Source: Flavobacteriaceae bacterium
GTDB lineage: Bacteria; Bacteroidota; Bacteroidia; Flavobacteriales; Flavobacteriaceae
Assembly (NCBI GenBank): GCA_013373635.1
Contig: JABXHN010000009.1
Span: 1 to 39,807 of the forward strand
Length of the DNA: 39,807 nt
Reading direction: 5' to 3'
Positions 6,043 to 20,939 of the stretch are shown in pieces. The position numbers and the translations under genes are program-made. Below the pieces are notes generated by a model. The model was not told the DNA's origin, did no database searches, and saw nothing but the letters and a program-made list of their open reading frames with translations. Position 1 is the first letter of the stretch; each line of letters starts with the position of its first letter.

Positions 6043-6054
6043 TGATAATTATCA
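6043..6054 (+). promoter_or_regulatory. FNR-like operator before hemN
   Basis: TGATAATTATCA is a perfect 12-bp palindrome of FNR type (TGAT-N4-ATCA). Its centre (6048.5) lies 29.5 bp upstream of the first base of the -7 element at 6078, which puts it near -41.5 of a start at about 6090. The same geometry occurs at three other sites in the window. Confidence 0.72.
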
Positions 6055-6077
6055 TATAGAATGGGATGTGCTTGAGC

Positions 6078-6085
6078 TATTTTTG
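6078..6085 (+). promoter_or_regulatory. -7 promoter element of hemN
   Basis: TATTTTTG matches TAnnTTTG. The expected start near 6090 would leave only about 4 bases before the ATG at 6094, so the transcript would be nearly leaderless. No clear -33 TTG is present, as is common at activator-dependent promoters. Confidence 0.65.
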
Positions 6086-6093
6086 CTCAGAGT

Positions 6094-7455
6094 ATGTCCC
6101 ATTTAATTGAAAAATACAATGTGCCCGGTCCTCGTTATACGAGTTACCCAACGGTACCCTATTGGGATCTAGAGTCTTTTTCGATTGAACAATGGCTGGA
6201 AAGCGTCAAAGATAGCTTTCAAATCAGCAATCAATCCGAAGGGATTAGTATTTATATTCACCTGCCTTTTTGTGAAAACCTATGTACCTTTTGTGGGTGT
6301 CATAAACGCATTACCAAGAGACACGAGCAAGAAGCACCTTATGTGGATACCTTACTCGCAGAATGGGATCTGTACTGTGATCTATTAGAAGATCGCCCTT
6401 TGATCAAAGAATTGCACTTAGGAGGAGGTACACCAACCTTTTTTTCAATAGAAGAACTCCAGCGACTTATTACTGGTCTTTTTAAAAGAGCTGAGCGAGC
6501 TAAAGGATATGAATACAGTTTTGAAGGTCATCCCAATAACACTACAGAAGAACATCTAAAATGCTTATATGATTTAGGATTTAGTCGTGTGAGTTTTGGA
6601 GTTCAGGATTACGATCCCAAAGTTCAGTTGGCAATTCATAGAATTCAGCCTTATGAAGCCGTAAAAAAAGTAACTGAACTCGCTACAGCTGTAGGTTATT
6701 ATTCCGTTGGTCATGATTTGATTTACGGACTGCCCTTACAATCCAAGAATGCGATTCTCAACACCGTTGAAAAGACATTAAAACTTAGACCTGATCGAAT
6801 CGCACTCTATTCTTATGCCCATGTCCCTTGGATTAAAGGAAATGGTCAACGAGGGTTTTCAGAAGAGGATTTACCATCTGCGGATGAGAAACGAATGCTT
6901 TATGAACTGGCTAAGAACGCCCTTCTCTCAGCTGGATATATCGAGATTGGAATGGATCACTTTGCTGTGGAATCCGATTCGCTTTACAGGGCAACGCTTG
7001 AAGGAACAATACACAGAAACTTTATGGGATACACTCAATCGAAGACTCGATTGATGATTGGACTTGGAATGTCTAGTATCAGTGATAGCTGGACTTCATT
7101 TGCACAAAATGAAAAGGATTTAGAGGCGTATACAGCTTTAGTTCACAAGGGAATTATCCCCGTAGTTAAAGGGCATCATTTAAACCAGGAAGACCTAGTG
7201 ATTCGAAAACATATTCTGAACTTAATGACTCAATTTGAAACGAGTTGGGATACTAGTCAGGGAATGTTTCCAGAAATAGAAGATTGTTTGAACTCACTCA
7301 AGACTTTTGAAGAGGATGAGCTCTTAAAAGTTCACGATCATTCGATCGAGGTTTTTGAAAAAGGAAAGCCTTTTATCAGAAATATCTGTATGGCATTTGA
7401 TTTAAAGCTCCTTCGAACTGCTCCCGATCGTCAACTCTTCTCCATGACTATTTGA
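6094..7455 (+). CDS. hemN: Oxygen-independent coproporphyrinogen III oxidase (radical SAM)
   Basis: A 453-residue cytoplasmic enzyme that decarboxylates coproporphyrinogen III to protoporphyrinogen IX without oxygen, using S-adenosylmethionine. The Fe-S motif C60-x3-C64-x2-C67 is followed by G-C69, the CGC form seen in true HemN. The N-terminal PGPRYTSYPT (residues 11-20) separates it from HemW. The SAM-binding GGGTPTFF lies near residue 111, and the HemN C-terminal domain follows. An FNR-like operator lies just upstream, as suits haem synthesis at low oxygen next to a cbb3 oxidase cluster. Its last 54 bases overlap the convergent SafE-like gene. Confidence 0.95.
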   Translation: MSHLIEKYNVPGPRYTSYPTVPYWDLESFSIEQWLESVKDSFQISNQSEGISIYIHLPFCENLCTFCGCHKRITKRHEQEAPYVDTLLAEWDLYCDLLEDRPLIKELHLGGGTPTFFSIEELQRLITGLFKRAERAKGYEYSFEGHPNNTTEEHLKCLYDLGFSRVSFGVQDYDPKVQLAIHRIQPYEAVKKVTELATAVGYYSVGHDLIYGLPLQSKNAILNTVEKTLKLRPDRIALYSYAHVPWIKGNGQRGFSEEDLPSADEKRMLYELAKNALLSAGYIEIGMDHFAVESDSLYRATLEGTIHRNFMGYTQSKTRLMIGLGMSSISDSWTSFAQNEKDLEAYTALVHKGIIPVVKGHHLNQEDLVIRKHILNLMTQFETSWDTSQGMFPEIEDCLNSLKTFEEDELLKVHDHSIEVFEKGKPFIRNICMAFDLKLLRTAPDRQLFSMTI

Positions 7456-8169
7456 GTTGGAGGTATCGTGACACTCAATGGAATTTTCACCAGCCATTTG
7501 GTGATTTTGTTTTGGTGAAATGTATGGAATCCCCAACCCCAACCCTCTAAGTATAAATAGTATTCCCAAAAGAATCACAAAGAAAGGAATCAACTTTTTG
7601 ATGTTTTGAACATACTTCTTTTGAATCAGTGATGCCGAATAAACCAATATCGTTAACAAAGGAACGGTTCCCAATCCAAAAAAGATCATATAGAGAACCC
7701 CTGTCGTGATACTTCCATTGGCTAGAGCACCCATCATGGCCATATACACAAGACCACAGGGGAGAAACCCGTTTAAAAATCCAATCGTTAATAAGGTATC
7801 TGCCTTATTCTTTTTAAGTGCTTTTCCAAGGGAGGATTTTATTTTGCTAATCGGCTTGTAAATCCAATTTGCTTTAAAAAAGGAATTGTGACTAAGTGCT
7901 GGAAACAATGCAAATAGGATGATGATCACACCAGTACCAATACTGAGTTGCTGTTGGTAACCAAAAAGAGAAACTCCCATTCCCAAAGAGCCTAAAACAA
8001 GCCCAATGAGTCCATAACTGATCATTTTTCCTAAATGATAACTGCTAATTAGAAATAATTTTTTTAAGCCTTTGCTGTCCCCTAATGGAAGCATCATCGC
8101 AATTGGACCACACATGCCAACGCAGTGGAGTGAACCCAATAGTCCGATAATAAAGGCAGAAAGAAGCAA
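7402..8169 (-). CDS. SafE/DsbD_2-type membrane protein of the cbb3 cluster
   Basis: A 255-residue protein with about six membrane segments, of the sulphite exporter TauE/SafE-like group (DsbD_2, related to CcdA/DsbD). Two matched motifs begin the two halves: HCVGMCGP (C16, C20) and NGFLPCGL (C138), which suggest thiol chemistry or copper handling rather than sulphite export. It directly follows ccoH, so a role in copper delivery or cytochrome assembly is likely. The start is a TTG 3 bases after the ccoH stop; that stop is in frame, so no upstream start is possible. The hydrophilic tail (residues 219-255) has three His (H223, H234, H242) and one Cys (C233), and its last 17 codons overlap hemN. 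Confidence 0.8.
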   Translation of the reverse strand: MLLSAFIIGLLGSLHCVGMCGPIAMMLPLGDSKGLKKLFLISSYHLGKMISYGLIGLVLGSLGMGVSLFGYQQQLSIGTGVIIILFALFPALSHNSFFKANWIYKPISKIKSSLGKALKKNKADTLLTIGFLNGFLPCGLVYMAMMGALANGSITTGVLYMIFFGLGTVPLLTILVYSASLIQKKYVQNIKKLIPFFVILLGILFILRGLGLGIPYISPKQNHQMAGENSIECHDTSNSNSHGEELTIGSSSKEL

Positions 8170-8172
8170 AGT

Positions 8173-8619
8173 TTAAATGATTATAGCTGTTTTATATAAG
8201 TATCGCTGATTGTTATACGTCCAATCGATTGTAATATTCCATCTTCCTGATTCCAACTGTTCTCTGCTGATTATAATTTCAGATTGTTTGATGTCAATAG
8301 GAATAGAAGTGTCTAAGTTTATGTTTGATGGTCGGTATAATTGAATAACACCACTGATGGCATCGGGTTGTTGATTATTTGGAAAAACAATCAAGACTCC
8401 TTCTTGTATGACTTTAATAGAGAGAGGAAACTCCAAGTCTTTGGCTGCTTGCTGGGCATCGATCACCTCTTGATAAGCTAGTTCTTCAACATAATAGGAA
8501 TCACTTACCAAACTGTGATTGGCTTTATCATCTGTGATCATACGAAATACGAAAAAAAGAATAAAGCTAATAAAGCCGATAAATGCTAAAACAATTCCTG
8601 TTCCCCAGTTAAATTTCAT
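8173..8619 (-). CDS. ccoH: FixH/CcoH-family cbb3 assembly protein
   Basis: A 148-residue protein with one N-terminal membrane helix (about residues 8-28) and a periplasmic domain rich in beta strands. The size, topology and place between ccoG and the SafE-like gene fit FixH/CcoH, an assembly factor that stays attached to the cbb3 oxidase. YYVEELAYQEVIDAQQAA just after the helix is typical of the Bacteroidota form. The gene starts 16 bases after ccoG and ends 3 bases before the next start. Confidence 0.85.
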   Translation of the reverse strand: MKFNWGTGIVLAFIGFISFILFFVFRMITDDKANHSLVSDSYYVEELAYQEVIDAQQAAKDLEFPLSIKVIQEGVLIVFPNNQQPDAISGVIQLYRPSNINLDTSIPIDIKQSEIIISREQLESGRWNITIDWTYNNQRYLYKTAIII

Positions 8620-8635
8620 AAGTGATTTTTAGTAA

Positions 8636-10048
8636 TTAATAAAAGGAGCGAGGTCCTAAAAAGTTTGCCTCCGTCGTATCGATGAGTTCATCATTCGAAT
8701 ATACACCAATTTTCAATTCTGTTTTAGCTTTTTTGATAAGGGCTGATTCAATTTCAATAAACAGCGTTCCTTCAGCATAATTTGTTGGCTCAATTGTAAA
8801 GGAATCCCCACTGACTACTTTAACACTTCCATCAATTGAAAGTACTTTAAAATGAACGTTTTCAATTTCCTTATCGGTTTTGTTGATGATCTTGTAAGTA
8901 AATACATTGCTGAGTCTAGTGTCCTTGTGTTCAAAAAGCTGACCAGGGAGTCTTAAGATACTAGCTTCCACTGAATTTCTTAAAAACAACATCGCAGTAA
9001 GTACTGCTATTAAAGCGAGAAGGACTCCAGTATATCCTTTCATTCTCAAATTGAACTCGAAAGCTTTGTTTTTAGCGATATTATCCTCACTTGCATAGCG
9101 AATAAGTCCCCTAGGCTTATCGATTTTATCCATCACTGTATCACATTCATCGATACAGGCGGTACAGTTAATACACTCTAATTGAGTGCCGTTTCGAATA
9201 TCGATTCCGGTAGGGCAGACTTGCACACATTGATCACAGTCGATACAATCTCCATAACCATTCGCTTTTCTGTCCTCACCTTTTTTGAATTTCTTACGAC
9301 CCTTTGTTCCTTCACCTCTAACATGGTCATAGGCGACAATGATGGATTTATTGTCTAAGAGGACACCTTGTAATCTTCCATAAGGGCATGCGATGATACA
9401 TACCTGCTCTCTAAACCAGCTAAACACCCAGTAAAAAACTACAGTAAAAATTGATAAGGCAATAAAGGTTCCAGAGTTTTCACTTATCCCTTCACGGATA
9501 TGTTCAATAAGAAGATCACCCGATATTAGATAAGCTAAAAAGACATTGGAGATTACAAATGAAATAAGTGCGAAAACAAACCATTTTAAGAGACGTTTAA
9601 AGATCTTTTCAGTATCCCAAGCTTGCTCTTTAAGTTTCATTTGTTTGAAACGATTTCCTTCGATTAGGAATTCAATTCGTCTAAAAACCATTTCCATAAA
9701 AATAGTTTGTGGACAAATCCATCCACAGAAAATACGACCAAAGGAAACGGTAAATAAAGCGATAAAGACCACTCCAATTATCATAGAGATCACAAAGAGG
9801 TGGAAATCTTGAGGCCAAAATGGAAAACCAAAGATATTGAAGCGACGCTCCAATACGTTGATCATAATAAACTGGTTTCCGTTTATTTTGACAAATGGAG
9901 CGGCCAGAAGAAAGATTAAAAAGAAGTAACTTAATAACTTTCTTCTGTTGTAATACCTTCCATTAGGTTTTTTTGGGAATACCCATTTTCTTTTACCGTC
10001 TTCACGGATCGTATTAATGGAATCTCTAAAGTTTTCTTGTTCTTGCAT
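8636..10048 (-). CDS. ccoG: Cytochrome c oxidase accessory protein CcoG (FixG/RdxA)
   Basis: A 470-residue polyferredoxin-like membrane protein needed for cbb3 maturation; in other bacteria CcoG reduces copper(II) for the CuB site. It has FCGWICPQ (C108, C112) and ACPYGRLQG (C221, with C217 four residues before), then two ferredoxin clusters: C268/C271/C274/C278-P and C292/C295/C298/C302. Membrane helices lie near residues 40-60, 85-105, 155-175, 195-212 and 335-352, and an Ig-like C-terminal domain (about 375-470) follows. It is followed by ccoH at 16 bases, in the operon starting at ccoS. Confidence 0.95.
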   Translation of the reverse strand: MQEQENFRDSINTIREDGKRKWVFPKKPNGRYYNRRKLLSYFFLIFLLAAPFVKINGNQFIMINVLERRFNIFGFPFWPQDFHLFVISMIIGVVFIALFTVSFGRIFCGWICPQTIFMEMVFRRIEFLIEGNRFKQMKLKEQAWDTEKIFKRLLKWFVFALISFVISNVFLAYLISGDLLIEHIREGISENSGTFIALSIFTVVFYWVFSWFREQVCIIACPYGRLQGVLLDNKSIIVAYDHVRGEGTKGRKKFKKGEDRKANGYGDCIDCDQCVQVCPTGIDIRNGTQLECINCTACIDECDTVMDKIDKPRGLIRYASEDNIAKNKAFEFNLRMKGYTGVLLALIAVLTAMLFLRNSVEASILRLPGQLFEHKDTRLSNVFTYKIINKTDKEIENVHFKVLSIDGSVKVVSGDSFTIEPTNYAEGTLFIEIESALIKKAKTELKIGVYSNDELIDTTEANFLGPRSFY

Positions 10049-10112
10049 ACCGAATTAATCGAGTTTAAGGTTAAATGTAATTTGTTTTGATCAATTGGTA
10101 CTTAATCACAAA

Positions 10113-10988
10113 TTATTCTTCCCAAAGTTCTCCTTCTGCTTCTTTTGGATTAGCTGGACTTGTTCCACCAAGAGAAATCACATAGCTAGCTACTTGAGCG
10201 ATTTCAGCTGGTTTGAGTATTTGTTTCCAAGCTACCATACCTTTACCGTCTCGACCACCTTCAGAAACAGTACTAAATACATTTTTAATACCACCACCTA
10301 ATATCCAGTGTTGATCTGTAAGGTTAGGTCCAATACCACCTCCACCATCAGCCATATGACAGGCTACACAATTGGTGTCGAATATCTGTTTACCTGCAGC
10401 TAAATCAGCAGCATCAGTCATTAGTTCAACAGTGGAAGCATCTACTAAATCCTTTGCAGTTTTCTTGTATTCTGCAATGGCAATTTCTGCAGCAGCAACT
10501 TCCATTTCATATTCTTCAGCTTGAGTGTATTTCTTGATAAAATCAAAACGAATATGATAGATGATTGCAAAAACGATTGTAGCGTAGAACAGATAAATCC
10601 ACCATGGTGGTAAGTTGTTATCTAGCTCTTTAATTCCGTCAAAATCGTGATCGATAATAATAGTTTCTTCGGTAACTCCTTCTTTTTTCTTTCCGATAAA
10701 GAAGATCCAAATTGCTTTTAACCACTTAAATTCAGGAAGTTTATCTTTCTCTGCCATATAGCGTTCTTTTGCTTTCTCATCTAAGGAGTGAAGCATAATG
10801 TTTTCTACAGCAGTTACGATAATTTCAATAGCGATTAAAATTAAAAGTACAATACCCAAGAATAATTGAATCATAGGTATAGCTATAAATGCCGGTTGTT
10901 CACCTGAATCGATTGCCCATTCTGTTGCGGCAAAAATGATAAAAAATAAAGCTGGAATTCTAATCCACCAAGGTAATAGGTTTTTCAT
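10113..10988 (-). CDS. ccoP: cbb3 cytochrome oxidase subunit III CcoP, single-haem form
   Basis: A 291-residue membrane-bound c-type cytochrome that passes electrons to the CcoNO core. It has three membrane helices (about 10-26, 36-60, 129-148), the CcoP N-terminal motif HDFDGIKELDNNLPPWW (114-130), an amphipathic linker, and one haem c site C207-V-A-C210-H211 with the probable axial ligand M251 (GKGMVAW). Proteobacterial CcoP has two haem c motifs; only one is present here. An extra N-terminal membrane pair precedes the CcoP domain. It begins 2 bases after ccoQ ends. Confidence 0.93.
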   Translation of the reverse strand: MKNLLPWWIRIPALFFIIFAATEWAIDSGEQPAFIAIPMIQLFLGIVLLILIAIEIIVTAVENIMLHSLDEKAKERYMAEKDKLPEFKWLKAIWIFFIGKKKEGVTEETIIIDHDFDGIKELDNNLPPWWIYLFYATIVFAIIYHIRFDFIKKYTQAEEYEMEVAAAEIAIAEYKKTAKDLVDASTVELMTDAADLAAGKQIFDTNCVACHMADGGGGIGPNLTDQHWILGGGIKNVFSTVSEGGRDGKGMVAWKQILKPAEIAQVASYVISLGGTSPANPKEAEGELWEE

Positions 10989-10990
10989 GG

Positions 10991-11182
10991 TTATTGTTCT
11001 TTATAATTTTGTTGGTTGTCTTCAAAAGGTAATTGGCTCATTTCTGTAACGTGATCTTTAGTCGCGGTAGCTACCCACCAAAATAAAGCTACAAAGAAGG
11101 CGAAAAAGATGACAAGAGATATCATGGGATAGGTTGCTATCCCTTCGATATCTTCCATATATGGTTTAATAAATTTCAGCAT
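10991..11182 (-). CDS. ccoQ: cbb3 oxidase small subunit CcoQ/FixQ
   Basis: A 63-residue protein with one membrane helix (about residues 17-38, ending FFVALFWWVAT) and an acidic polar tail, which fits CcoQ/FixQ, a stabilising subunit of cbb3 oxidase. It lies 1 base after ccoNO and 2 bases before ccoP, so it is translated within the same operon. The sequence is too short for strong motif proof; position is the main argument. Confidence 0.85.
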   Translation of the reverse strand: MLKFIKPYMEDIEGIATYPMISLVIFFAFFVALFWWVATATKDHVTEMSQLPFEDNQQNYKEQ

Positions 11183-11183
11183 A

Positions 11184-13358
11184 TTACTTAACTTTAATAT
11201 CAGTTCCTAATCGTTGTAAGTAGGCAATCATTGCAGTAATTTCACGGTCTTTCATCGGTACGAATTCCATACCAGCATCCTGAGCGTATTTTTTGTCTGC
11301 TTCATAACTTTTTACAAAGTCAGGATCTGCGTGAAGATTTTCTTCTATTTGAGCAGCTTGTGCATCCATTAATTCAAAAGCATTGGCAATTTCTTCATCT
11401 GTGTATGGTACGCCCAGAGTCACCATAGCTTTCATTTTATCTTGAATAGAAGAACGATCGTGTTTGTTTCTAATCATCCATGAATAGGATGGCATAATAG
11501 ATCCTGAAGAGGTCGATTGTGGATCGTACATATGGTTAAAATGCCAGTTATCTGAGTATTTTCCACCAACTCTAAGTAAATCTGGACCAGTTCTCTTAGA
11601 TCCCCATAAGAATGGATGATCATATACGTATTCTCCAGCCTTAGAATAAGGACCATAACGTTCTACTTCAGATCTAAACGGACGAATCATTTGAGAGTGA
11701 CATCCGACACATCCTTCTCTGATATAAAGGTCTCTTCCTTCTAATTCAAGAGGTGTATAAGGTTTTACACTGCTGATAGTTGGAATATTAGACTTAACAA
11801 CCAGAGTTGGAATAATCTGTGCAATACCACCAATTAAGATGGTTACTGTAGCTAATAATGTTAACTGAACAGGTTTGCGCTCCAACCATTGGTGGAAGGT
11901 TTCACCCATGGTTCTTTTGCTCGAAACTTTCTCTAATGCTGGAGCTTCAGCTGCTTCATCGGTAACTGATTCACCTGCTAGAATTGTTTTAGCAATATTG
12001 TAAATGAGAACGAGAAGTCCAATAAGGAATAAAGTTCCTCCAATAGCTCTCATCCAGTACATTGGCATAATTTGTTGAACGGTTTCAAGGAAGTTACCGT
12101 AAACTAAACTACCATCAGGATTAAAGTCTTTCCACATTAACGCTTGAGTAAAACCAGCCACATACATCGGTAGTGCATAGAGAACAATACCTAAGGTTCC
12201 AATCCAGAAGTGGAAGTTTGCTAATGCATCAGAATATAATTTTGTTTTAAAAAGTCTAGGGACTAACCAGTAGACAATGGCAAAGGTCATCATGCCATTC
12301 CAGGCTAATGCACCAACGTGAACGTGTCCAATAATCCAATCAGAGAAGTGGGCAATAGCATTGACGTTTTTAAGTGAAAGCATTGGTCCTTCGAAGGTTG
12401 CCATACCGTATCCAGTAATGGCAACTACCATGAATTTTAAAACAGCAGATTGTCTTACTTTATCCCATACACCTCTTAGGGTTAATAATCCATTGATCAT
12501 ACCTCCCCAAGATGGAGCGATCAACATTACTGAGAATGCTACACCTAAGTTCTGTGCCCAGTCTGGAAGTGCTGAGTACAATAAATGGTGAGGACCAGCC
12601 CAGATATAAATAAAAATCAATGACCAGAAGTGGACAATGGATAGTCGATAAGAATAGATTGGACGATCAGCAGCTTTAGGAACAAAGTAATACATCAATC
12701 CTAAGAATGGAGTAGTTAGGAAGAATGCTACCGCATTGTGACCATACCACCATTGAACTAAGGCATCTTGTACTCCTGCATAAACAGAATACGATTTTAA
12801 GGCACTAATCGGTAATTCAAGTGAATTGAAAATGTGTAAAACGGCAACTGTTACGAATGTAGCCAAATAGAACCAAATTGCAACGTATAAATGACGCTGT
12901 CTTCTCTTGATAATGGTTCCAATCAAGTTAACACCGAAAACTACCCAAACAAGAGCAATAGCAATATCAATTGGCCATTCGAGTTCTGCGTATTCTTTTG
13001 AAGTAGTGATTCCTAAAGGAAGAGTAATGGCGGCGGCAACAATGATGAGCTGCCATCCCCAAAAATTGATTTTACTGAGTAAATCACTAAACATTCTCGC
13101 CTTAAGCAATCTCTGTGTTGAATAGTAAATCCCAGCAAAAATGGCATTACCAACAAAAGCAAAGATGACGGCGTTGGTGTGTAGTGGTCGCAAACGACCA
13201 AAACTCAACCAAGAAATACCATCAGTAAGCTTTGGAAACATAAACATAAAGGCAAGTAGAAGCCCTACTAACATTCCTACGAGTCCAAAAATGACGGACG
13301 CATAAAGGAAGTTTCTGACAATCTTATTGTCGTATTGAAATTTTTGAATTTCTCCCAT
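11184..13358 (-). CDS. ccoNO: cbb3 cytochrome oxidase subunits I and II fused (CcoN-CcoO)
   Basis: A 724-residue fusion. Residues 1-460 are CcoN: haem b ligand H60 (RPLHTN), CuB ligands H207 (WWYGHNAV) and H257/H258 (AGPHH), the candidate cross-linked Y251, and haem ligands H345/H347 (IGHVHVG). A cytoplasmic linker (about 460-495) leads to a helix (500-520) and the CcoO part, with haem c site C550-VG-C553-H554 followed by QMIRPF and a later PSYSWM for the axial Met. It reduces oxygen to water with high affinity and pumps protons. The separate ccoN and ccoO of proteobacteria are joined here, as is usual in Bacteroidota. The gene starts 3 bases after ccoS ends. Confidence 0.96.
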   Translation of the reverse strand: MGEIQKFQYDNKIVRNFLYASVIFGLVGMLVGLLLAFMFMFPKLTDGISWLSFGRLRPLHTNAVIFAFVGNAIFAGIYYSTQRLLKARMFSDLLSKINFWGWQLIIVAAAITLPLGITTSKEYAELEWPIDIAIALVWVVFGVNLIGTIIKRRQRHLYVAIWFYLATFVTVAVLHIFNSLELPISALKSYSVYAGVQDALVQWWYGHNAVAFFLTTPFLGLMYYFVPKAADRPIYSYRLSIVHFWSLIFIYIWAGPHHLLYSALPDWAQNLGVAFSVMLIAPSWGGMINGLLTLRGVWDKVRQSAVLKFMVVAITGYGMATFEGPMLSLKNVNAIAHFSDWIIGHVHVGALAWNGMMTFAIVYWLVPRLFKTKLYSDALANFHFWIGTLGIVLYALPMYVAGFTQALMWKDFNPDGSLVYGNFLETVQQIMPMYWMRAIGGTLFLIGLLVLIYNIAKTILAGESVTDEAAEAPALEKVSSKRTMGETFHQWLERKPVQLTLLATVTILIGGIAQIIPTLVVKSNIPTISSVKPYTPLELEGRDLYIREGCVGCHSQMIRPFRSEVERYGPYSKAGEYVYDHPFLWGSKRTGPDLLRVGGKYSDNWHFNHMYDPQSTSSGSIMPSYSWMIRNKHDRSSIQDKMKAMVTLGVPYTDEEIANAFELMDAQAAQIEENLHADPDFVKSYEADKKYAQDAGMEFVPMKDREITAMIAYLQRLGTDIKVK

Positions 13359-13361
13359 GGT

Positions 13362-13556
13362 TTATTTAATATCGGTTTGGTTAGTATTTTTTGTTTTAGT
13401 TTTTTCTGTTTCAATTAACTCATCTTCGAATAACATTCGAACAGAGGGAGTGTACCCATCATCAAATTGACCTTTTCGTACAGCTGTTATAAAAGCGATA
13501 AAAAAGCCAATAGCGACAGTAACACTAATTGAAAGCAATAAATAGATTACAGACAA
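13362..13556 (-). CDS. ccoS: cbb3 oxidase maturation protein CcoS
   Basis: A 64-residue protein with one helix (SVIYLLLSISVTVAIGFF, residues 2-19) followed by RKGQFDD, the conserved CcoS pattern; the tail is rich in Lys and Thr. CcoS is needed to insert haem b and copper into CcoN. The start is TTG at 13556; there is no ATG in the stretch upstream, and the family normally begins at this point. It is the first gene of the cco operon. The predicted transcript start near 13568 would give a 12-base leader. Confidence 0.9.
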   Translation of the reverse strand: MSVIYLLLSISVTVAIGFFIAFITAVRKGQFDDGYTPSVRMLFEDELIETEKTKTKNTNQTDIK

Positions 13557-13572
13557 ATTGTTGAAATTTTTG

Positions 13573-13580
13573 TAAAAATA
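13573..13580 (-). promoter_or_regulatory. -7 promoter element of the ccoS-ccoNO operon
   Basis: The minus strand reads TATTTTTA, matching TAnnTTTG apart from the last base. It lies exactly 29.5 bp from the centre of the FNR-like dyad, as at hemN, ccoI and the universal stress gene. Confidence 0.62.
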
Positions 13581-13594
13581 GATTTACAGTGGTT

Positions 13595-13624
13595 GATATC
13601 ATATGATAATTGTCATTTGATATC
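13595..13624. promoter_or_regulatory. 30-bp nested dyad containing an FNR-like operator, before ccoS
   Basis: The core TGATAATTGTCA (13604-13615) is an FNR-type site with one imperfect pair. Around it lie the arms GATATCA (13595-13601) and TGATATC (13618-13624), a perfect inverted repeat with the same centre, 13609.5. Together 13 of 15 base pairs of the 30-bp dyad match. The core would lie near -41.5 of the cco promoter; the outer arms suggest extended or double binding. Confidence 0.72.
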
Positions 13625-13662
13625 TTTAATTTAAACAAAATACTGTTGATAAATAGGGCTGA

Positions 13663-16047
13663 TTAAAGTTTTCTGCTGATCCATTTAGAAGCAATTGTTG
13701 TAAAGATTACAACAGATATGGAACTAATAGGCATGAGGATTGCGGCATATACCGGTTTTAAGATTCCCATCACAGCAATACTAATTCCGATGAGATTGTA
13801 AAAAAGTGAAATTAATAAGCTTGTTCGAATGACTTTAATTCCTCTTTTGGATATCGAAATAAACTGATCGAGTTTTTCAAATACTGAGGCGTCTAATATC
13901 GCATCTGATGCCGGAGTAAATACCGCAATATCTTCGGTGACAGCAATCCCGACAGTAGACTCTTTTAGTGCTCCAGCGTCGTTGAGACCATCGCCAACCA
14001 TAACAACTGACTGTCCCCGTTTTTTTAGATTTTTAATATAATCTAATTTGTCTTGGGGTTGTTGTTTAAACAACATCTTAGTCATCTTAGGACTCAGTGC
14101 TTCTAAATTGGATTTTTCTCCTTCATTGTCTCCTGTGAGTATGTGAATTGAAGCGAAACGACTCAATCTGATCAATAATTCTTTTAATCCTTTTCTATAG
14201 GTTGTCTTAAATATAAATCGACCCTTGTTGACTCCATCGATACTGCAAAAAACAGAAGTTTCATGTGTAGAAATTTGTTCTTTGTTGTTGGTGAATTCAC
14301 TGTTCCCCAATCGAATTTCGATTCCGTCATAATATGCTTTGATACCTTGACCCACCACATTTTCAAAATCTTGTGGTTGTAATATTTCTGTTTTGTCCAT
14401 CAATTCATAAAGGCTTCGACTCAATGGGTGATGCGATGCTCTTAGGGTACTGGCGATAAATATTTTTTCACGATCAGTTAAAGGAGTCCCTGTATAATGG
14501 TAATCCATATCCTTGGCAGCACTCAAGGTTCCTGTTTTATCTAATACGACTGCATCTGTATGTGATAGTTTTTCTAAAGTAATTCCATCTTTGATATAGA
14601 ATTTATGGGTTCCAAAAATGCGTAAAAGATTTCCCTGAGTAAAGGGTGCAGCTAATGCTAATGCGCATGGACAGGCCACAATTAGGACTGCGGTGAGTAC
14701 CTGCAGACTCTGCTGAGCATCTATGAAATACCAAATCAAACTTGCAGATAATGCGATGCTTAAAATAACGACGGTAAAGTATTTGCTAATACGATCAGTT
14801 AAGTTTTGGTATTGTCCCTGGGCTAAGGGGTCAAAACTATCATTGGACCACAGTTGTGTTAAATAAGATTGAGACACCGATTTGGTGGTCAATAGTTCGA
14901 TAGCCCCACCAATTTGTCTTCCTCCAGCATAGATGCGATCACCGATATACTTTGTAACGGCTTTTGATTCACCAGTCACATAAGCGTAGTCAATTTCACC
15001 CTCGCCTTTTAAAAGTCTACCATCAGTTGGTATAATTTCACCATTTCTGATGAGTATGCGTTTGCCTTCTTCTAATTCGTGAATAGGAATGATACGTTCT
15101 TGTTCATCTTCTTCGATTAAGGTGACGGCTATTGGAAAATAAGAGTTGAAGTCACGTTCAAAAGAGAGGTGTTTATAGGTCTTGTCTTGAAAATATTTTC
15201 CAATTAGTAAAAAGAAAACAAGCCCCGTTAAACTGTCAAAAAATCCAGGGCCCCAATCTAAAAGCACTTCAACAGTTGATCGAATAAATAAAACCGATAT
15301 TCCTAAGGCAATGGGGACATCGATATTTAAAAACTTGGAACGAATCCCTTGATAGGCTTTTTTGAAATAATCAGAGGCCGCATAAAAAACAACAGGTAAG
15401 CTAAAAAACAACATCAAAGCTCTAAAAAAGTGCTTGTACTCTTCGATCCAAATATCATTGTAATTGAAATATTCAGGAAAGGATAAGAACATTACATTTC
15501 CAAAGGCAAAACCAGCAACTCCAAGTTTGTAATACATGGTTCTGTCAATTTTCGATTCCTTTTTGTTGTAATCAGCTAAAGAGATATAGGGCTCATAGCC
15601 AATCGAGGTGAGTAATAAAACAACTTCTTTTAAAGAAATTCGATCCGATTTGTAATTGACGGTTACTTTTTTATTTGGAAAATCTACCAAACTCGACAAA
15701 ATATTGGAACTGAGTTTGTTCAAATTTTCTAAAACCCAAATACAAGAACTACAGTGGATGTGAGGAATGTATAAATTGACAATCTCTGTACCTTCCGAGG
15801 AAAAACTCAGCAGTTTCTCCTTGATGTCCGAGTGGTCTAAATATTCGTATTCAGTAGTGATTTCCTTTGGGGTAGCTCCAGCAGCTTGTTGAATGCTGTA
15901 ATAGTTTTCTAAGTTGTTCTCTTTGAAAATGCTATAGACTGTTTTGCATCCATGACAACAGAAATTTTTGTCATCGTATACTACTGTCTGATCCACACAC
16001 GCATCACCACAGTGATAACAGTTGAGTTGTTCTTTTTGAGCTGTCAT
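13663..16047 (-). CDS. ccoI: Copper-exporting P1B-type ATPase CcoI of the cbb3 assembly pathway
   Basis: A 794-residue heavy-metal P-type ATPase. The N terminus has a Cys-rich metal site (C10, C13, C17, then C30-C31-x2-C34, in FCCHGC) and an HMA-like domain with H98-C99-SS-C102. The membrane CPC motif (VACPCALALA) is near residue 461, the phosphorylation motif DKTGTL near 500, and GDGLNDA near 685. The FCCxGC N-terminal domain is typical of CcoI/FixI, which supplies copper for the CuB site of cbb3 oxidase. It has its own FNR-like site, and ccoS starts about 100 bases downstream. The transcript is predicted to begin near 16054, leaving a leader of about 7 bases. Confidence 0.93.
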   Translation of the reverse strand: MTAQKEQLNCYHCGDACVDQTVVYDDKNFCCHGCKTVYSIFKENNLENYYSIQQAAGATPKEITTEYEYLDHSDIKEKLLSFSSEGTEIVNLYIPHIHCSSCIWVLENLNKLSSNILSSLVDFPNKKVTVNYKSDRISLKEVVLLLTSIGYEPYISLADYNKKESKIDRTMYYKLGVAGFAFGNVMFLSFPEYFNYNDIWIEEYKHFFRALMLFFSLPVVFYAASDYFKKAYQGIRSKFLNIDVPIALGISVLFIRSTVEVLLDWGPGFFDSLTGLVFFLLIGKYFQDKTYKHLSFERDFNSYFPIAVTLIEEDEQERIIPIHELEEGKRILIRNGEIIPTDGRLLKGEGEIDYAYVTGESKAVTKYIGDRIYAGGRQIGGAIELLTTKSVSQSYLTQLWSNDSFDPLAQGQYQNLTDRISKYFTVVILSIALSASLIWYFIDAQQSLQVLTAVLIVACPCALALAAPFTQGNLLRIFGTHKFYIKDGITLEKLSHTDAVVLDKTGTLSAAKDMDYHYTGTPLTDREKIFIASTLRASHHPLSRSLYELMDKTEILQPQDFENVVGQGIKAYYDGIEIRLGNSEFTNNKEQISTHETSVFCSIDGVNKGRFIFKTTYRKGLKELLIRLSRFASIHILTGDNEGEKSNLEALSPKMTKMLFKQQPQDKLDYIKNLKKRGQSVVMVGDGLNDAGALKESTVGIAVTEDIAVFTPASDAILDASVFEKLDQFISISKRGIKVIRTSLLISLFYNLIGISIAVMGILKPVYAAILMPISSISVVIFTTIASKWISRKL

Positions 16048-16058
16048 ATTTGAATATG

Positions 16059-16066
16059 CAAAGGTC
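16059..16066 (-). promoter_or_regulatory. -7 promoter element of ccoI
   Basis: The minus strand reads GACCTTTG: the TTTG half of TAnnTTTG is exact but TA is replaced by GA. It lies 29.5 bp from the centre of the FNR-like dyad at 16090-16101, the same spacing as at the other three sites, which is the main reason to accept it. Confidence 0.5.
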
Positions 16067-16089
16067 TAATTCTTTTCCATACAAATTTA

Positions 16090-16101
16090 TGATTTCTGTC
16101 A
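16090..16101. promoter_or_regulatory. FNR-like operator between ccoI and the FNR-like gene
   Basis: TGATTTCTGTCA fits TGAT-N4-(A/G)TCA, a weaker dyad than the hemN site. Its centre (16095.5) is near -41.5 of the inferred ccoI promoter. Relative to the regulator's own promoter (start near 16145) it lies near -49.5, so it could also affect the regulator. Confidence 0.6.
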
Positions 16102-16110
16102 GTCTTTTTT

Positions 16111-16140
16111 TTGTTCAAATGAGATAAAGAATTAACTTTA
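16111..16140 (+). promoter_or_regulatory. Promoter of the FNR-like regulator gene
   Basis: TTG (16111-16113) is separated by exactly 19 bases from TAACTTTA (16133-16140), matching TTG-N19-TAnnTTTG except for the final base. The predicted start near 16145 lies 12 bases before the ATG at 16157. Unlike the four operator-linked promoters this one has a good -33 box, so it may be active without the activator. Confidence 0.6.
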
Positions 16141-16156
16141 TGATTGATTTAATATT

Positions 16157-16852
16157 ATGAACGAGAGAGCAAAAAGTAAATGCGAACAATGCATCATTAG
16201 ACAGTTTAATTCCATGAGAGCGATGACTCATGAAGAATTGTCTAAGGTTTCTCAGTGCAAAGAAGTTAGAACCATTAAAAAAGGGGAGATCATCTTTAAA
16301 GAAGGCGATGCTCTTAACGGTGTTTTTTGTGTTAATAGCGGTATTTCAAAACTCTCTAAACTTTCTGAAAACGGAAAAAGTCAGATTGTTAAATTAGCTG
16401 GGAAAGGTGAAATCTTAGGGCAACGTTCTTTGATTGCAAGAGAAGAAGCTAACCTTACTGCTGAGGCTATCGATGATATGGAAGTTTGTTTTATCTCTAA
16501 AGAGCATATCTTAGAGCCTCTTGATCGAAACAACGAATATTCTACTGAAATGTTACGTCATTTGGCCAATGAGTTAAAAGAGGCGGATGATGTTATTGTC
16601 AATATGTCTCATAAATCAGTAAAACAACGTATGGCTGCCTGTATTCTCTATATGAACGATATGTATGGTTCAGATAGTGAAGGCTTCTTGAATCTTGTAT
16701 TATCGAGAGAGGATATTGCTGATATTGTTGGAACTGCTACTGAATCAGCTATACGTATGATTTCTGATTTCAAAAAACAAGGACTCATCAATACCATGGG
16801 TAAGCGAATTAAAATTGTTGATTTTCGCAAACTCCAATCCATGGCTCAATAG
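16157..16852 (+). CDS. FNR-like transcription regulator (Crp/Fnr family)
   Basis: A 231-residue regulator with a cyclic-nucleotide-binding-type beta roll (about 25-125), a dimer helix (about 125-155) and a winged HTH (about 175-225). The recognition helix TESAIRMISDF has E196 and R200, the pair that in E. coli FNR contacts the TGA half-site. Cysteines C9-x2-C12 at the N terminus and C111, in EVCFI aligning with C122 of E. coli FNR, suggest an oxygen-labile [4Fe-4S] cluster; the fourth ligand could be C34 or C58. It sits between ccoI and the universal stress gene, and TGAT-N4-(A/G)TCA sites flank it. Function: probable activator of low-oxygen genes. Confidence 0.9.
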   Translation: MNERAKSKCEQCIIRQFNSMRAMTHEELSKVSQCKEVRTIKKGEIIFKEGDALNGVFCVNSGISKLSKLSENGKSQIVKLAGKGEILGQRSLIAREEANLTAEAIDDMEVCFISKEHILEPLDRNNEYSTEMLRHLANELKEADDVIVNMSHKSVKQRMAACILYMNDMYGSDSEGFLNLVLSREDIADIVGTATESAIRMISDFKKQGLINTMGKRIKIVDFRKLQSMAQ

Positions 16853-16861
16853 TTTTACTAC

Positions 16862-16873
16862 TGATATTTATCA
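16862..16873 (+). promoter_or_regulatory. FNR-like operator before the universal stress protein gene
   Basis: TGATATTTATCA is a TGAT-N4-ATCA dyad with perfect arms. Its centre (16867.5) is 29.5 bp upstream of the first base of TACTTTTA at 16897, the same geometry as at hemN and ccoS. Confidence 0.7.
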
Positions 16874-16896
16874 TTGTTAGCTCCTAAGAGTTGATT

Positions 16897-16904
16897 TACT
16901 TTTA
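16897..16904 (+). promoter_or_regulatory. -7 promoter element of the universal stress protein gene
   Basis: TACTTTTA matches TAnnTTTG except at the last base. The expected start is near 16909, giving a leader of about 22 bases to the TTG start at 16931. Confidence 0.6.
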
Positions 16905-16930: not shown

Positions 16931-17845
16931 TTGATTGATCAACCCTATAAAGTGTTAATTCCCACAGATTTTTCAGAACATTCGTGGAACGCTGTTCAAA
17001 AAGCAATTCATTTGTTTTGGGATAAGCCTACAGTTTTTCATTTTATACACGCTTATAAACCTCATATTGCTAGGAGAAGATTTTCTGCAAGTGCCTTGTC
17101 TTTAGATGATTTACAAGAGGAACCTAAACGAATTGCAATTGAAAAATTAGACCTTCGAATCGAGAAAATAAAAGCCGAGCTTCACAACGAAAAGCACAGC
17201 TATTATACCCACACATCTTTTGAAACACTTAAAAATGCAGTCCTTCAAAAGCTTAATGAAAACGACATCGATTTAATTGTCATGGGAACTAAAGGAGCCA
17301 GTGCTATTGAGTATTCGTTGATGGGATCCAACACTCATAAATTGATTCAAGCCAATGCTTCATGTCCACTACTAGCCATTCCTAGACAGTGTCAATTGGA
17401 AAAAATTAATACGATTGGATTTGCATTAGATATCAAGCGTTCCATTAGCCCTCAACAGCTAAAACCGCTGATCGATGTTGCATCCTTACTCAATGCGAAA
17501 ATAAAAGTGGTTTATGTAAAAAAACCAAATGATTCATTTACAGAAAGCCAATTTGTGAATCTCAAAAAGTTAAAGAGCGCCTATAAGGATATTGCATTTG
17601 ATTTTAAAGGAGTGTTAGAGGTGAAATCCGTATCAAAGACTTTGGAACTTTATGCTGAAAAGGAAAAGATTGATGTGATGGCACTGATGAATTACAACTA
17701 TGGATTTGTTGAAAAAATGACAAAAGAAGAGGTGGTTAAAAAAACATTATTTGAATCGTTTATTCCACTTTTAGTGGTATCGGATCAAATTGAAAATAGT
17801 GCTAAAAAATTAAATTCGAATAAAGAGCTGACAACTCATGCTTAA
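16931..17845 (+). CDS. Double-domain universal stress protein (UspA family)
   Basis: A 304-residue cytoplasmic protein with two Usp domains. The first opens with YKVLIPTDFSEHSWNAV (residues 6-22) and has the ATP-binding pattern G119-x2-G122-x9-G132-S133. The second (about 150-290) is degenerate and lacks that motif. Such proteins aid survival under oxygen or energy limitation. The start is a TTG: the only nearby ATG (16907) is directly followed by an in-frame stop, and homologues begin close to the K-V-L-I strand. It lies 78 bases after the FNR-like gene and carries its own FNR-like operator, so it is probably part of the same low-oxygen response. Confidence 0.85.
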   Translation: MIDQPYKVLIPTDFSEHSWNAVQKAIHLFWDKPTVFHFIHAYKPHIARRRFSASALSLDDLQEEPKRIAIEKLDLRIEKIKAELHNEKHSYYTHTSFETLKNAVLQKLNENDIDLIVMGTKGASAIEYSLMGSNTHKLIQANASCPLLAIPRQCQLEKINTIGFALDIKRSISPQQLKPLIDVASLLNAKIKVVYVKKPNDSFTESQFVNLKKLKSAYKDIAFDFKGVLEVKSVSKTLELYAEKEKIDVMALMNYNYGFVEKMTKEEVVKKTLFESFIPLLVVSDQIENSAKKLNSNKELTTHA

Positions 17846-17898: not shown

Positions 17899-17988
17899 TT
17901 GTGTTGCGTCTTGACTAGTAGTCGAGACCGTGTTCGAGTAGAAAACTACTCAACTAATGAAAGGCTTTCCAGTTGGAAGGCTTTTTTT
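17899..17988 (+). ncRNA. Candidate small structured RNA with three hairpins
   Basis: About 90 bases between a TATATTTG promoter element and a strong terminator, with no ORF. Hairpin 1 is GTCTTGACT/AGTCGAGAC (17908-17916 with 17920-17928), nine pairs including one G-U. Hairpin 2 is GTT-c-GAGTAG, loop AAAA, CTACTCAAC (17932-17954), nine pairs with a bulged C. Hairpin 3 is the terminator. It lies between the universal stress gene and the convergent 3' end of hutG, and its T-tract runs into the hutG stop codon. The family is not recognised; the possible roles (trans-acting RNA, or antisense effect on hutG) cannot be told apart from sequence. Confidence 0.6.
17960..17988 (+). terminator. Rho-independent terminator of the candidate small RNA
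   Basis: AAAGGCTTTCC, loop AGTT, GGAAGGCTTTT form an 11-pair stem (two G-U pairs) followed by an unbroken T run to 17988. On the opposite strand no T run follows, so it serves the plus strand only. Confidence 0.85.
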
Positions 17989-18925
17989 ATTTCCAAGAAT
18001 CGATGATATGATACGTCAGTGCAGCGGCTAGTTTAGATGTTCTAGAGTCGATATCAAAGGCAGGGTTGAGTTCTGCAAGATCAACACTGATGACTTTACC
18101 CTTACTCATTAGGTGCTTTACACAGGCTAGAGAAAAATCAACATCAAATCCTAAAGGAGATGGAGCACTTACTCCAGGAGCATAACAATCAGCAAAACCG
18201 TCTAGATCTATAGTAATATAAAGCAAATCTACTTTTTTTGAGAACGAATTAAGGGACTTAAAAACCTGACTTAAATGTTGAGTTGTTGAATATTCTCGTT
18301 CGATTAATTCAACTTGAAGTTCACGAGCTCTTTTTATGAGATAAGGTGGATTGGCATTTTTTCGATAGCCAATACAGAGGTAATGAAAATCATCCACTTC
18401 AGAGGCAATTTGATTAAAAGGAGATCCCGAGTGAGCTCCCTGTTCAAATGGCCTTAGATCTAAATGAGCATCAAAGTTTACGATCCCTATACTCTTATTG
18501 GGATAGGCCTTTTGAATGCCTTTGAAATGTCCATAGGCTATATCGTGTCCACCTCCAATGATAACAGGTTTAATTCCTTTACTCAAGATGCTGTACACTG
18601 TTTCAGCTAAATATTCTTGAGTCTGTTCTAGGTTTTGATCAATACATTGGATTTCTCCTAGATCGAGCAATTGAACTGAAGCGTCAAAGTGATTGGCGAG
18701 TTTGCCAAAACTTGTTCTAAACGATTGAGGTCCTTCAGAGGCACCGACTCTACCTTGATTTCGACGAACACCTTCATCTACAGCATAGCCTACTATTCCA
18801 AAGGTGGGGTGAATTACTTCTTTTAAATTGTTGAGATTTAAACACTCTATTCGCTGATAGAGGTAGTCGTGTTGACTGCTTGGTCTTCCCTTCCAATCCT
18901 CAGTATTTGGAGCTTTGTAATTCAT
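17987..18925 (-). CDS. hutG: Formimidoylglutamase
   Basis: A 312-residue manganese enzyme of the arginase/ureohydrolase fold, last step of histidine breakdown: formimidoylglutamate to glutamate plus formamide. The metal motifs are GGGHD (H127), FDAHLD (D152, H154, D156) and IDLDGFAD (D240, D242), followed by PGVSAPSP. Its place at the end of a hut operon decides between formimidoylglutamase and arginase or agmatinase. It starts 1 base after hutU and is the last gene of the operon, facing the candidate small RNA. Confidence 0.93.
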   Translation of the reverse strand: MNYKAPNTEDWKGRPSSQHDYLYQRIECLNLNNLKEVIHPTFGIVGYAVDEGVRRNQGRVGASEGPQSFRTSFGKLANHFDASVQLLDLGEIQCIDQNLEQTQEYLAETVYSILSKGIKPVIIGGGHDIAYGHFKGIQKAYPNKSIGIVNFDAHLDLRPFEQGAHSGSPFNQIASEVDDFHYLCIGYRKNANPPYLIKRARELQVELIEREYSTTQHLSQVFKSLNSFSKKVDLLYITIDLDGFADCYAPGVSAPSPLGFDVDFSLACVKHLMSKGKVISVDLAELNPAFDIDSRTSKLAAALTYHIIDSWK

Positions 18926-18926
18926 C

Positions 18927-20939
18927 TTAAAACAAATCTTTTAAATCGTCATCTGAAACAGTGATGGCAGGAGTCACTTTTAAGTTAGGGTAGTTCTCTT
19001 GTATGCGTTCTATAGTGAATACTGCATTTTCATTTCTAGCCCATGAGCGTCTTGAAAGTCCGTTGGTCACATCGTAAAAAAGCATTGACTCTAATCGTTT
19101 TTGAGCTTGATCACTTCCGTCGAGTACCATTCCAAACCCTCCGTTGATGACTTCGCCCCATCCAACGCCTCCACCGTTGTGGATCGATACCCAACTCGCC
19201 CCTCTAAAACTGTCTCCGATCACATTGTGAATGGCCATATCGGCCGTGAATTTACTTCCGTCGTAAATATTGGAGGTTTCTCTAAATGGAGAATCGGTTC
19301 CCGATACATCGTGATGATCCCTACCGAGAACTACAGGAGCACTAAGTTCTCCATAAGCAATAGCCTTGTTAAAAGCTTTAGCAATTTCCATACGACCGTA
19401 AGTGTCGGCGTAAAGGATACGTGCTTTGGAACCGACAACTAACTTGTTTTTTTTAGCGTTTTCAATCCAGTGAATATTATCGCTGAGTTGTTGTTGAATA
19501 CGTTCTGGTGCTTGCTCTTTTAGTTCTTTCATAACGCGAAGCGCTATGGCATCGGTTGTGTCTAAGTCTTCCCAGTCTCCAGAGCTGCATACCCATCTAA
19601 AGGGTCCAAACCCATAGTCAAAACAGAGGGGTCCAAGGATGTCTTGAACATAGGATGGATACTTAAAATCAATTCCGTTTTCGGCCATCACATCGGCTTT
19701 TGCTTTAGAGGCTTCCAATAAAAAGGCGTTTCCATAATCAAAGAAATAGGTTCCTTTTGCACTATGACTATTAATGGCATTGATCTGTCGAATTAAACTT
19801 TTATGGACTGCTTCTTGAAACGCTTTAGGATCAGATACCATCAGATGATTGGATTCTTCATAGCTCAATCCAACAGGATAATAACCACCTGCCCAGGGAT
19901 TGTGAAGTGAGGTTTGATCGGATCCTAAATCCACATAAATATTTTCTTTGTCAAAGGCTTCCCATAGGTCAACGATATTACCGATATAGGCGATTGAAGT
20001 TGTTTCTTCCTTTTCTTGTGCTGTCTTAATTCGAGTGATCAATTGATCGAGATCCTCAATAAGTTCTTTGACCCAACCTTGCTCATGTCTTTTATGTGCA
20101 GCCTTGGAGTTAATTTCTGCACAGACAGTAATACATCCAACGATATCACCTGCCTTTGGTTGTGCACCACTCATTCCTCCTAATCCAGAAGTTAAAAACA
20201 ACTTTCCTTTTGGATTGGTATTGGGATCAATACGTCTAAAGGCATTCATCACTGTGATGGTGGTTCCGTGAACAATTCCCTGAGGTCCAATATACATATA
20301 GGACCCAGCAGTCATTTGACCGTATTGAGTGACCCCGAGTGCGTTATAGCGTTCCCAGTCATCAGGTTTGGAATAATTTGGAATCATCATACCGTTAGTG
20401 ATAACCACTCTTGGAGCCGATTTTGATGATGGAAATAATCCCATGGGATGTCCAGAATACATATGTAGTGTTTGCTCCTCTGTCATCTGAGAGAGGTAGT
20501 GCATACAAAGACGGTATTGGATCCAATTTTGGAAGACCGCTCCATTTCCACCATAAGTGATGAGTTCTTCAGGATGTTGAGCTACTTTTGGATCTAAATT
20601 GTTGTCGATCATCATCATAATCGCTGCTGCCTCTTTGCATTTAGCTGGGTAGTGATCAATAGGTCTTGCAAAAATCTCATAGCTAGGTTTAAATCGAAAC
20701 ATATAGATTCTACCGTAGTCTTTGAGTTCCTGAGCAAATTCCTTAGAGAGTTCATGATGCCATTTTTGAGGTACATATCTCAACGCATTGCGAACTGCCA
20801 ACTTTTTTTCTTCAATCGACAAGAGGTTCTTTCGTTTTGGAGCTCTGTTAACTTCAGTTGAAGGAGTATATAAAGGAGGTAATTCAGTTGGAATTCCTTG
20901 GCTAATTTCTTTTTGAAAATGTGCTAATTCTAGATTCAT
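18927..20939 (-). CDS. hutU: Urocanate hydratase, long form
   Basis: A 670-residue enzyme using tightly bound NAD+ to convert urocanate to imidazolone propionate, the second step of histidine breakdown. The NAD loop GLGGMSGAQ is at 252-260 and the active-site cysteine lies in FRWVCSSGD (C451, equivalent in type to C410 of Pseudomonas HutU). HNGGGVGWGEVINGGFG lies near the C terminus. It is about 110 residues longer than the Pseudomonas enzyme, mostly as an N-terminal extension and an insert around 290-335, a size also seen in eukaryotic urocanases. It begins 2 bases after hutI. Confidence 0.96.
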   Translation of the reverse strand: MNLELAHFQKEISQGIPTELPPLYTPSTEVNRAPKRKNLLSIEEKKLAVRNALRYVPQKWHHELSKEFAQELKDYGRIYMFRFKPSYEIFARPIDHYPAKCKEAAAIMMMIDNNLDPKVAQHPEELITYGGNGAVFQNWIQYRLCMHYLSQMTEEQTLHMYSGHPMGLFPSSKSAPRVVITNGMMIPNYSKPDDWERYNALGVTQYGQMTAGSYMYIGPQGIVHGTTITVMNAFRRIDPNTNPKGKLFLTSGLGGMSGAQPKAGDIVGCITVCAEINSKAAHKRHEQGWVKELIEDLDQLITRIKTAQEKEETTSIAYIGNIVDLWEAFDKENIYVDLGSDQTSLHNPWAGGYYPVGLSYEESNHLMVSDPKAFQEAVHKSLIRQINAINSHSAKGTYFFDYGNAFLLEASKAKADVMAENGIDFKYPSYVQDILGPLCFDYGFGPFRWVCSSGDWEDLDTTDAIALRVMKELKEQAPERIQQQLSDNIHWIENAKKNKLVVGSKARILYADTYGRMEIAKAFNKAIAYGELSAPVVLGRDHHDVSGTDSPFRETSNIYDGSKFTADMAIHNVIGDSFRGASWVSIHNGGGVGWGEVINGGFGMVLDGSDQAQKRLESMLFYDVTNGLSRRSWARNENAVFTIERIQENYPNLKVTPAITVSDDDLKDLF

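Follow-up and report, generated by a model that had tools for sequence, protein, structure and literature searches.

In Escherichia coli and Aliivibrio fischeri, FNR carries a [4Fe-4S] cluster and activates class II promoters from a site at -41.5; the cluster ligands of the E. coli protein are C20-x2-C23-x5-C29 plus C122, and its recognition helix presents E209, S212 and R213. CRP class III promoters are tandem-site promoters, with the proximal site at the class II position. For the Bacteroidota, we found no oxygen regulator of the cbb3 oxidase described in the open-access literature (titles and abstract openings; subscription journals were outside the scope), while the accessible part of a study of Flavobacterium psychrophilum reports that this species raises its cbb3 oxidase and heme synthesis genes under oxygen limitation (PMC9723704). 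Here, we analyzed a window of 39,807 nucleotides (the whole stretch of DNA considered, from contig JABXHN010000009.1 of a Flavobacteriaceae bacterium) that holds hemN, a cco operon for a cbb3 oxidase, ccoI, a universal stress protein gene (usp) and a gene for an FNR-like protein (16157-16852, hereafter fnr). With a probability of roughly 0.83, four dyads of the form TGAY-N4-RTCA in this window would be operators through which the FNR-like protein controls a low-oxygen regulon by class II activation. We infer that a dimer of this protein would bind the dyad centered at -41.5 and, once bound, would activate the class II promoters of hemN, ccoS-ccoNOPGH, ccoI and usp rather than repress them, with the Bacteroidota -7 element (TAnnTTTG, -12 to -5) fixing the spacing and with low oxygen as the probable signal, conveyed by an oxygen-labile iron-sulfur cluster.

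The four dyads are the only TGAY-N4-RTCA sites in the whole window, and all of them lie before or between genes of low-oxygen type, where the first-pass annotation had located them. HMM matches agree with the gene identities given there, ccoS apart (Table 1). The number of dyads is ordinary, as 6 strand-matches compare with a shuffled mean of 4.8 and the four sites with a mean of 4.0 in first-order simulated windows, and dyad number alone was therefore dropped as evidence. Chance in an AT-rich genome, where TGAT and ATCA are common words, would explain this count, but it would not explain the spacing. An nAnnTTTR element begins 23 bp past the dyad, on the gene side, in 4/4 cases (first bases 6078 and 16897 on the + strand, 13580 and 16066 on the - strand), compared to a mean of 0.027 and a maximum of 1 in 300 first-order simulated windows, which bears out the earlier claim that identical spacing at four promoters is hard to obtain by chance. 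The elements had been described as TAnnTTT(G/A)-like; this holds for hemN, the cco operon and usp, which have TAnnTTTR proper, whereas the ccoI element, GACCTTTG, lacks the first T and is only loosely alike. In all four cases the dyad center lies 29.5 bp 5' of the first base of the -7 element. Because the -7 box is placed at -12 to -5 in the accessible part of the F. psychrophilum study (PMC9723704), this base would be -12 and the dyads are predicted to be centered at -41.5, the class II position, as had been proposed. The sites resemble those of FNR from E. coli and A. fischeri in their TGAT....ATCA core and class II position, but the outer TT/AA of TTGAT-N4-ATCAA are not retained (the consensus flanks differ) and the -7 element is of the Bacteroidota type. 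A search with TTGAT-N4-ATCAA allowing 2 mismatches was judged unspecific (80 scattered window matches, shuffled mean 53).

The same arrangement recurs in relatives. Searching 40 of them for TGATNNNNATCA followed after 13-33 bp by TAnnTTTG, we found 54/150 at gap 23 among the matches listed, which came from 31 genomes, compared to a mean of 4.8 and a maximum of 9 for each other gap. Excluding the genome from which the window comes (the own genome), the peak is 52/147 among the matches listed (p = 4e-31, with the related genomes not being independent). The strict gap-23 pattern occurs 377 times in 60 family genomes and 3 times for the reversed control. Orthologous promoters were then compared in 80 relatives' loci plus the window, in rows by gene, excluding rows where the alignment started past query residue 60, where the start was <100 bases from the locus end, or where identity was <35% (<29% for usp). 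A dyad was present before 21/32 hemN, 58/74 ccoS, 50/65 ccoI and 5/5 usp orthologues, and the element at gap 23 before 20/32, 51/74, 37/65 and 5/5, respectively (TAnnTTTR for ccoS, nAnnTTTR for the others). Orthologues of fnr have a dyad in 34/39 rows and nAnnTTTR at gap 23 in 5. Genes inside the operon largely lack the operator (dyad and gap-23 element both 0/54 for ccoP; 2/77 and 1/77 for ccoG), and each of the other half-site spacers (N2, N3, N5-N10) was seen in 0-3 rows per gene among hemN, ccoS, ccoI, fnr and usp. A good share of promoters is without the strict form, for instance the 11/32 hemN rows with no strict dyad. Considering the 4/4 spacing, the peak in relatives and the conserved layout, we regard chance as an extremely unlikely explanation, and the low-oxygen regulon first proposed for this locus is well supported at the level of sequence. 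If the regulon is real, a short rule (dyad, 23 bp, TAnnTTTR) would read out low-oxygen regulons in genomes of this Bacteroidota class.

Within the own genome, TGAYNNNNRTCA-N10..36-TAnnTTTR gave 20 matches (13 + 7), of which 5 are at gap 23 (0.7 expected); three of these five are the window's hemN, ccoS and usp sites. As for the other two, an exact dyad with a gap-23 -7 element lies upstream of a phosphoenolpyruvate carboxykinase gene (PF01293; L001, C13:51885-51927), and the second site lies upstream of a short frame of 138-139 codons with no Pfam family. Allowing one mismatch yielded 28 matches, ccoI among them, compared to 14 for the reversed pattern. About half of the 23 non-exact matches may be due to chance, and none was counted as a regulon member except ccoI; intergenic sites before genes for enolase, a peroxiredoxin, a CBS protein and a YceI-like protein are candidates only. 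A single dyad at C70:142155-142232 (L008/L009) has -7-like elements on both sides, at gaps of 23 and 27. The gene on the gap-23 side has no Pfam family, and the assignment of L008 as a DoxX protein was dropped as Pfam assigned it no family.

The putative reader has the CRP fold, with PF00027 (cNMP-binding-like beta roll), PF13545 and PF00325 (HTH_Crp) above the Pfam cut-offs and a match to a solved relative (5cvr/5e44, E ~1e-19). Its score against the curated NCBIfam Fnr model is 97.1 bits (cut-off 228). E196 and R200, the E..R pair of the recognition helix, are invariant in 39/39 aligned orthologues, in agreement with the earlier observation that the gene lies amid its targets and keeps this pair. 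C9, C12, C58 and C111 are likewise invariant in these 39, and again in a second set that shares members with the first (the window and 28 others, the protein having been obtained from 28/29 loci). In an alignment with A. fischeri FNR, C9 and C12 match the first two cluster cysteines and C111 the last, and C58 faces an Ala. Position 18, where FNR normally has its third N-terminal cysteine, is N in 28/29 and S in 1/29. The protein is therefore like FNR of E. coli and A. fischeri in its CRP fold with helix-turn-helix, N-terminal C-x2-C, C122-equivalent and E..R pair, and differs by N18 at the C29 place, the invariant C58 and Ile at the S212 place. Its cysteines set this protein apart from canonical FNR. 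We infer an oxygen-labile iron-sulfur cluster on Cys 9, 12 and 111, with Cys 58 probably replacing the third N-terminal cysteine; if this is right, it becomes testable how a cluster is bound by FNR-like proteins that lack this cysteine. In addition, L218:2019-2768, just downstream of a 405-amino-acid frame, encodes a further CRP/FNR protein whose N-terminal region contains C-x2-C-x4-C; it is possibly a second FNR type in Flavobacteriaceae.

The reader of this one regulon could instead sense carbon or some other signal, in a MalR/CRP-like role, considering that the accessible part of PMC8510549 groups a Flavobacteriales CRP/FNR homologue near MalR and proposes carbon sensing for it. However, that homologue may be a different paralogue, the cysteines are invariant in the orthologues read, and the targets are genes for the cbb3 oxidase, for the pump that probably supplies it with copper and for heme synthesis without oxygen, and we therefore find a signal other than oxygen unlikely.

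The family also has a second type of regulator. Of 60 family genomes, 40 have an orthologue of the FNR-like protein (at least 140 bits), 14 have weaker CRP/FNR matches only and 6 lack any match at E<=1e-20. The strict motif is present in 39/40, 13/14 and 1/6 of these, respectively. CcoNO was found at 78-84% identity in 13/14 weaker-match genomes, and all 13 CcoNO genomes lacking the orthologue encode a receiver-CRP fusion (frames read; five confirmed by Pfam). Seven weaker fnr matches near cco loci were rejected as short paralogues, since their full frames are receiver-CRP fusions. The ccoS promoter has a dyad and TAnnTTTR at gap 23 in 12/13 of the CcoNO genomes lacking the orthologue, with none in G062 (L204). 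An unread, weaker FNR-like match (~127 and ~110 bits, respectively) is present as well in two of the 13, G058 and G088, which may therefore not lack FNR altogether. The fusion is the likely reader of the operators in the 13 genomes, and E-[ST]-x-[IS]-R is present in the DNA-reading helix of 24/24 fusions read.

The kinase gene adjoining the fusion has a PAS domain. For L187, the only kinase aligned to DosP, the best solved relatives are two oxygen sensors, DosP (E 3e-15) and FixL (E 2e-12). The heme-PAS residues are numbered His77/Arg97 and His200/Arg220, and His and Arg stand 20 residues apart, the heme-site spacing, in 18/23 kinases by a strict pattern and not in 5. The next gene after the fusion is a usp homologue behind a dyad in 15/18 loci, 14 of them with TAnnTTTR at gap 23. 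By gene arrangement, this regulator - dyad - usp order matches the window's fnr - dyad - usp and appears to be kept while the regulator changes. Fusion-sized matches, by open-frame size, occur in 15/40 orthologue genomes; four were read and are fusions (L190, L215, L216, L217), and two regulator types can therefore coexist. Compared to the FixL-FixJ-FixK system of rhizobia, the relatives likewise have a heme-PAS-type kinase, a CRP/FNR-type E..R reader and a cbb3 operon as target, but with the receiver and the CRP-type DNA-binding domain in one protein rather than in FixJ and FixK. If this reading is right, how one promoter set survives the swap between iron-sulfur and heme-kinase sensors also becomes testable.

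These fusions raise the question of whether another regulator, a fusion or a short CRP-like protein, reads the sites in the window's own organism, given their likely role in the 13 family genomes and a 191-amino-acid CRP-like protein with a PETLTR helix in the own genome. No receiver-CRP fusion was found in that genome, which is 99.89% complete (8 matches at E<=1, none covering both halves), nor any other strong CRP/FNR match, and the short proteins are weak matches (E 1e-5 and 7e-4) on contigs other than the window's. We thus consider another reader in this organism quite unlikely, and the first-pass attribution of the sites to the product of fnr would probably hold for the window organism but not for some relatives.

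Genomes from other orders of this class have a further dyad 22 bp upstream. Among the ccoNO upstream regions of relatives, 17/79 contain such a second dyad at exactly this distance from the proximal site. Such tandem dyads are concentrated in more distant loci, with 16/24 scored rows below 73% CcoNO identity vs 1/47 above (79/80 regions surveyed, L052 dropped; 8 had no -7 candidate, and the scoring favors tandem sites). A strict tandem pattern gave 19 matches in 9/118 phylum genomes (control 0), and 8/9 of these genomes belong to a different order within the class. In 15 such genomes of the class, the dyad-to-dyad center distance is 22 in 29/96 places, compared to ~3 expected (p = 1e-19). The outer half of the proximal site is often weak (TAAT). 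As in CRP class III promoters, these relatives have two dimer sites upstream with the proximal one at the class II position; the differences are that tandem sites are found in relatives only and that the second dyad is 22 bp upstream. Taken by its sequence, the system represents, in Bacteroidota form, the familiar class II control of the cbb3 oxidase and hemN by FNR/CRP proteins. Three features are unusual: the set of cysteines is changed, a heme kinase with a receiver-CRP protein can take the regulator's place at the same operators, and the second dyad is specific to certain lineages. We lean slightly towards a single promoter code (-41.5 dyad plus Bacteroidota -7 element, with an extra -63.5 dyad in other orders) that two unrelated oxygen sensors serve, side by side or one in place of the other: an FNR whose fourth cysteine has moved, and a receiver-CRP fusion paired with a heme-PAS kinase.

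In relatives, the first base of the -7 element is other than T in 33/36 ccoI promoters with nAnnTTTR at gap 23 (consensus.AccTTTG then ta..AgGtA), and the window's variant therefore appears to be conserved and the rule for ccoI, perhaps making a weaker promoter. The ccoI dyad in relatives ends a median of 42 bases 5' of the estimated start codon, implying a leader of ~6 nt. For divergent loci (fnr identity at least 40%, <400 bp between the genes), exactly one dyad lies between fnr and ccoI in 32/32, ruling out the first impression of two. An fnr-facing TAnnTTTR box is 9-11 bp from this dyad in 19/32, placing the dyad center at about -27.5 to -29.5, a repressor-like position at which a bound protein should occlude the promoter. 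In 4/32 (L016, L018, L019 and L020, with a Maribacter and an Arenibacter among them) the box is at 23 bp, and the remaining 9/32 have it at another distance or not at all. On the fnr side of the window, there is no TAnnTTTR box at 9-11 or 23 bp from the dyad, and TAACTTTA is at 31. The sign of fnr autoregulation may thus differ within the family.

Several points weigh against regulation of these four promoters by the FNR-like protein. Within the window, the ccoI -7 element is without its first T, and the predicted leaders are very short (4 nt for hemN, 6085-6094; 7 nt for ccoI, 16047-16059) compared to a median of 24, with 5.5% leaderless, in the accessible part of the F. psychrophilum study (PMC9723704). 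In the protein, N18 in place of the C29-equivalent breaks the canonical cluster-ligand spacing. In the own genome, only two gap-23 sites lie outside the window, so independent support from it is small, and the 191-amino-acid protein (L245) also keeps the PETLTR helix. Across the family, the strict motif is present in 52/54 genomes with a CRP/FNR match (E<=1e-20) vs 1/6 without; this co-occurrence speaks for the regulon but is confounded by the oxidase, as five of the six regulator-less genomes have no CcoNO match (E<=1e-50) and the sixth has one of only 34%. G049 (L193) has a four-cysteine orthologue with a dyad near it, yet 0 strict gap-23 matches genome-wide, and G046 has 1 strict motif and no CRP/FNR match.

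Table 1. Predicted operators, -7 elements and genes in the window, with the receiver-CRP fusion genes of relatives
Feature	Position	Strand	Remarks
hemN operator dyad TGATAATTATCA	6043..6054	+	Center at predicted -41.5; TGAY-N4-RTCA
hemN -7 element TATTTTTG	6078..6085	+	Predicted start ~6090, ~4 nt 5' of ATG at 6094
hemN, oxygen-independent coproporphyrinogen III oxidase	6094..7455	+	TIGR00538, 413 bits, above cut-off
FixH-type ccoH	8173..8619	-	PF05751
ccoG	8636..10048	-	TIGR02745
ccoP, cbb3 subunit III	10113..10988	-	TIGR00782, 123.6 bits (below cut-off of 179.95); Pfam FixP_N above cut-off
ccoNO, fused cbb3 oxidase subunits I/II	11184..13358	-	NF011053, 1335 bits
ccoS, 64 amino acids, TTG start	13362..13556	-	By position and open reading frame conservation in relatives, not by HMM
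cco operon -7 element TATTTTTA	13573..13580	-	Predicted start ~13568
Operator dyad of the ccoS-ccoNO-P-G-H operon, TGACAATTATCA (read on -)	13604..13615	-	
ccoI-type heavy-metal P-type ATPase	13663..16047	-	By position; TIGR01525, 335 bits, just below cut-off of 346.25
ccoI -7 element GACCTTTG	16059..16066	-	First T absent; predicted start ~16054
Single dyad between ccoI and fnr, TGACAGAAATCA (read on -)	16090..16101	-	Predicted -41.5 for ccoI
FNR-like regulator, Cys 9, 12, 58, 111	16157..16852	+	Putative dyad reader; Pfam cNMP_binding, HTH_Crp_2, Crp; NCBIfam Fnr 97.1 bits
usp operator dyad TGATATTTATCA	16862..16873	+	
usp -7 element TACTTTTA	16897..16904	+	Predicted start ~16909
usp, universal stress protein gene, TTG start	16931..17845	+	PF00582, 77.8 bits
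Receiver-CRP fusion genes beside PAS kinases	L183-L190, L192, L194, L195, L212-L217, L032, L070, L074, L079, L080, L082, L089		Same-operator genomes

The best-ranked named relative for the window's CcoNO is Maribacter sedimenticola (84% identity). An arginase-family gene and a urocanase gene adjoin the genes of the putative regulon, on the strand opposite to usp (window 17987-20939).

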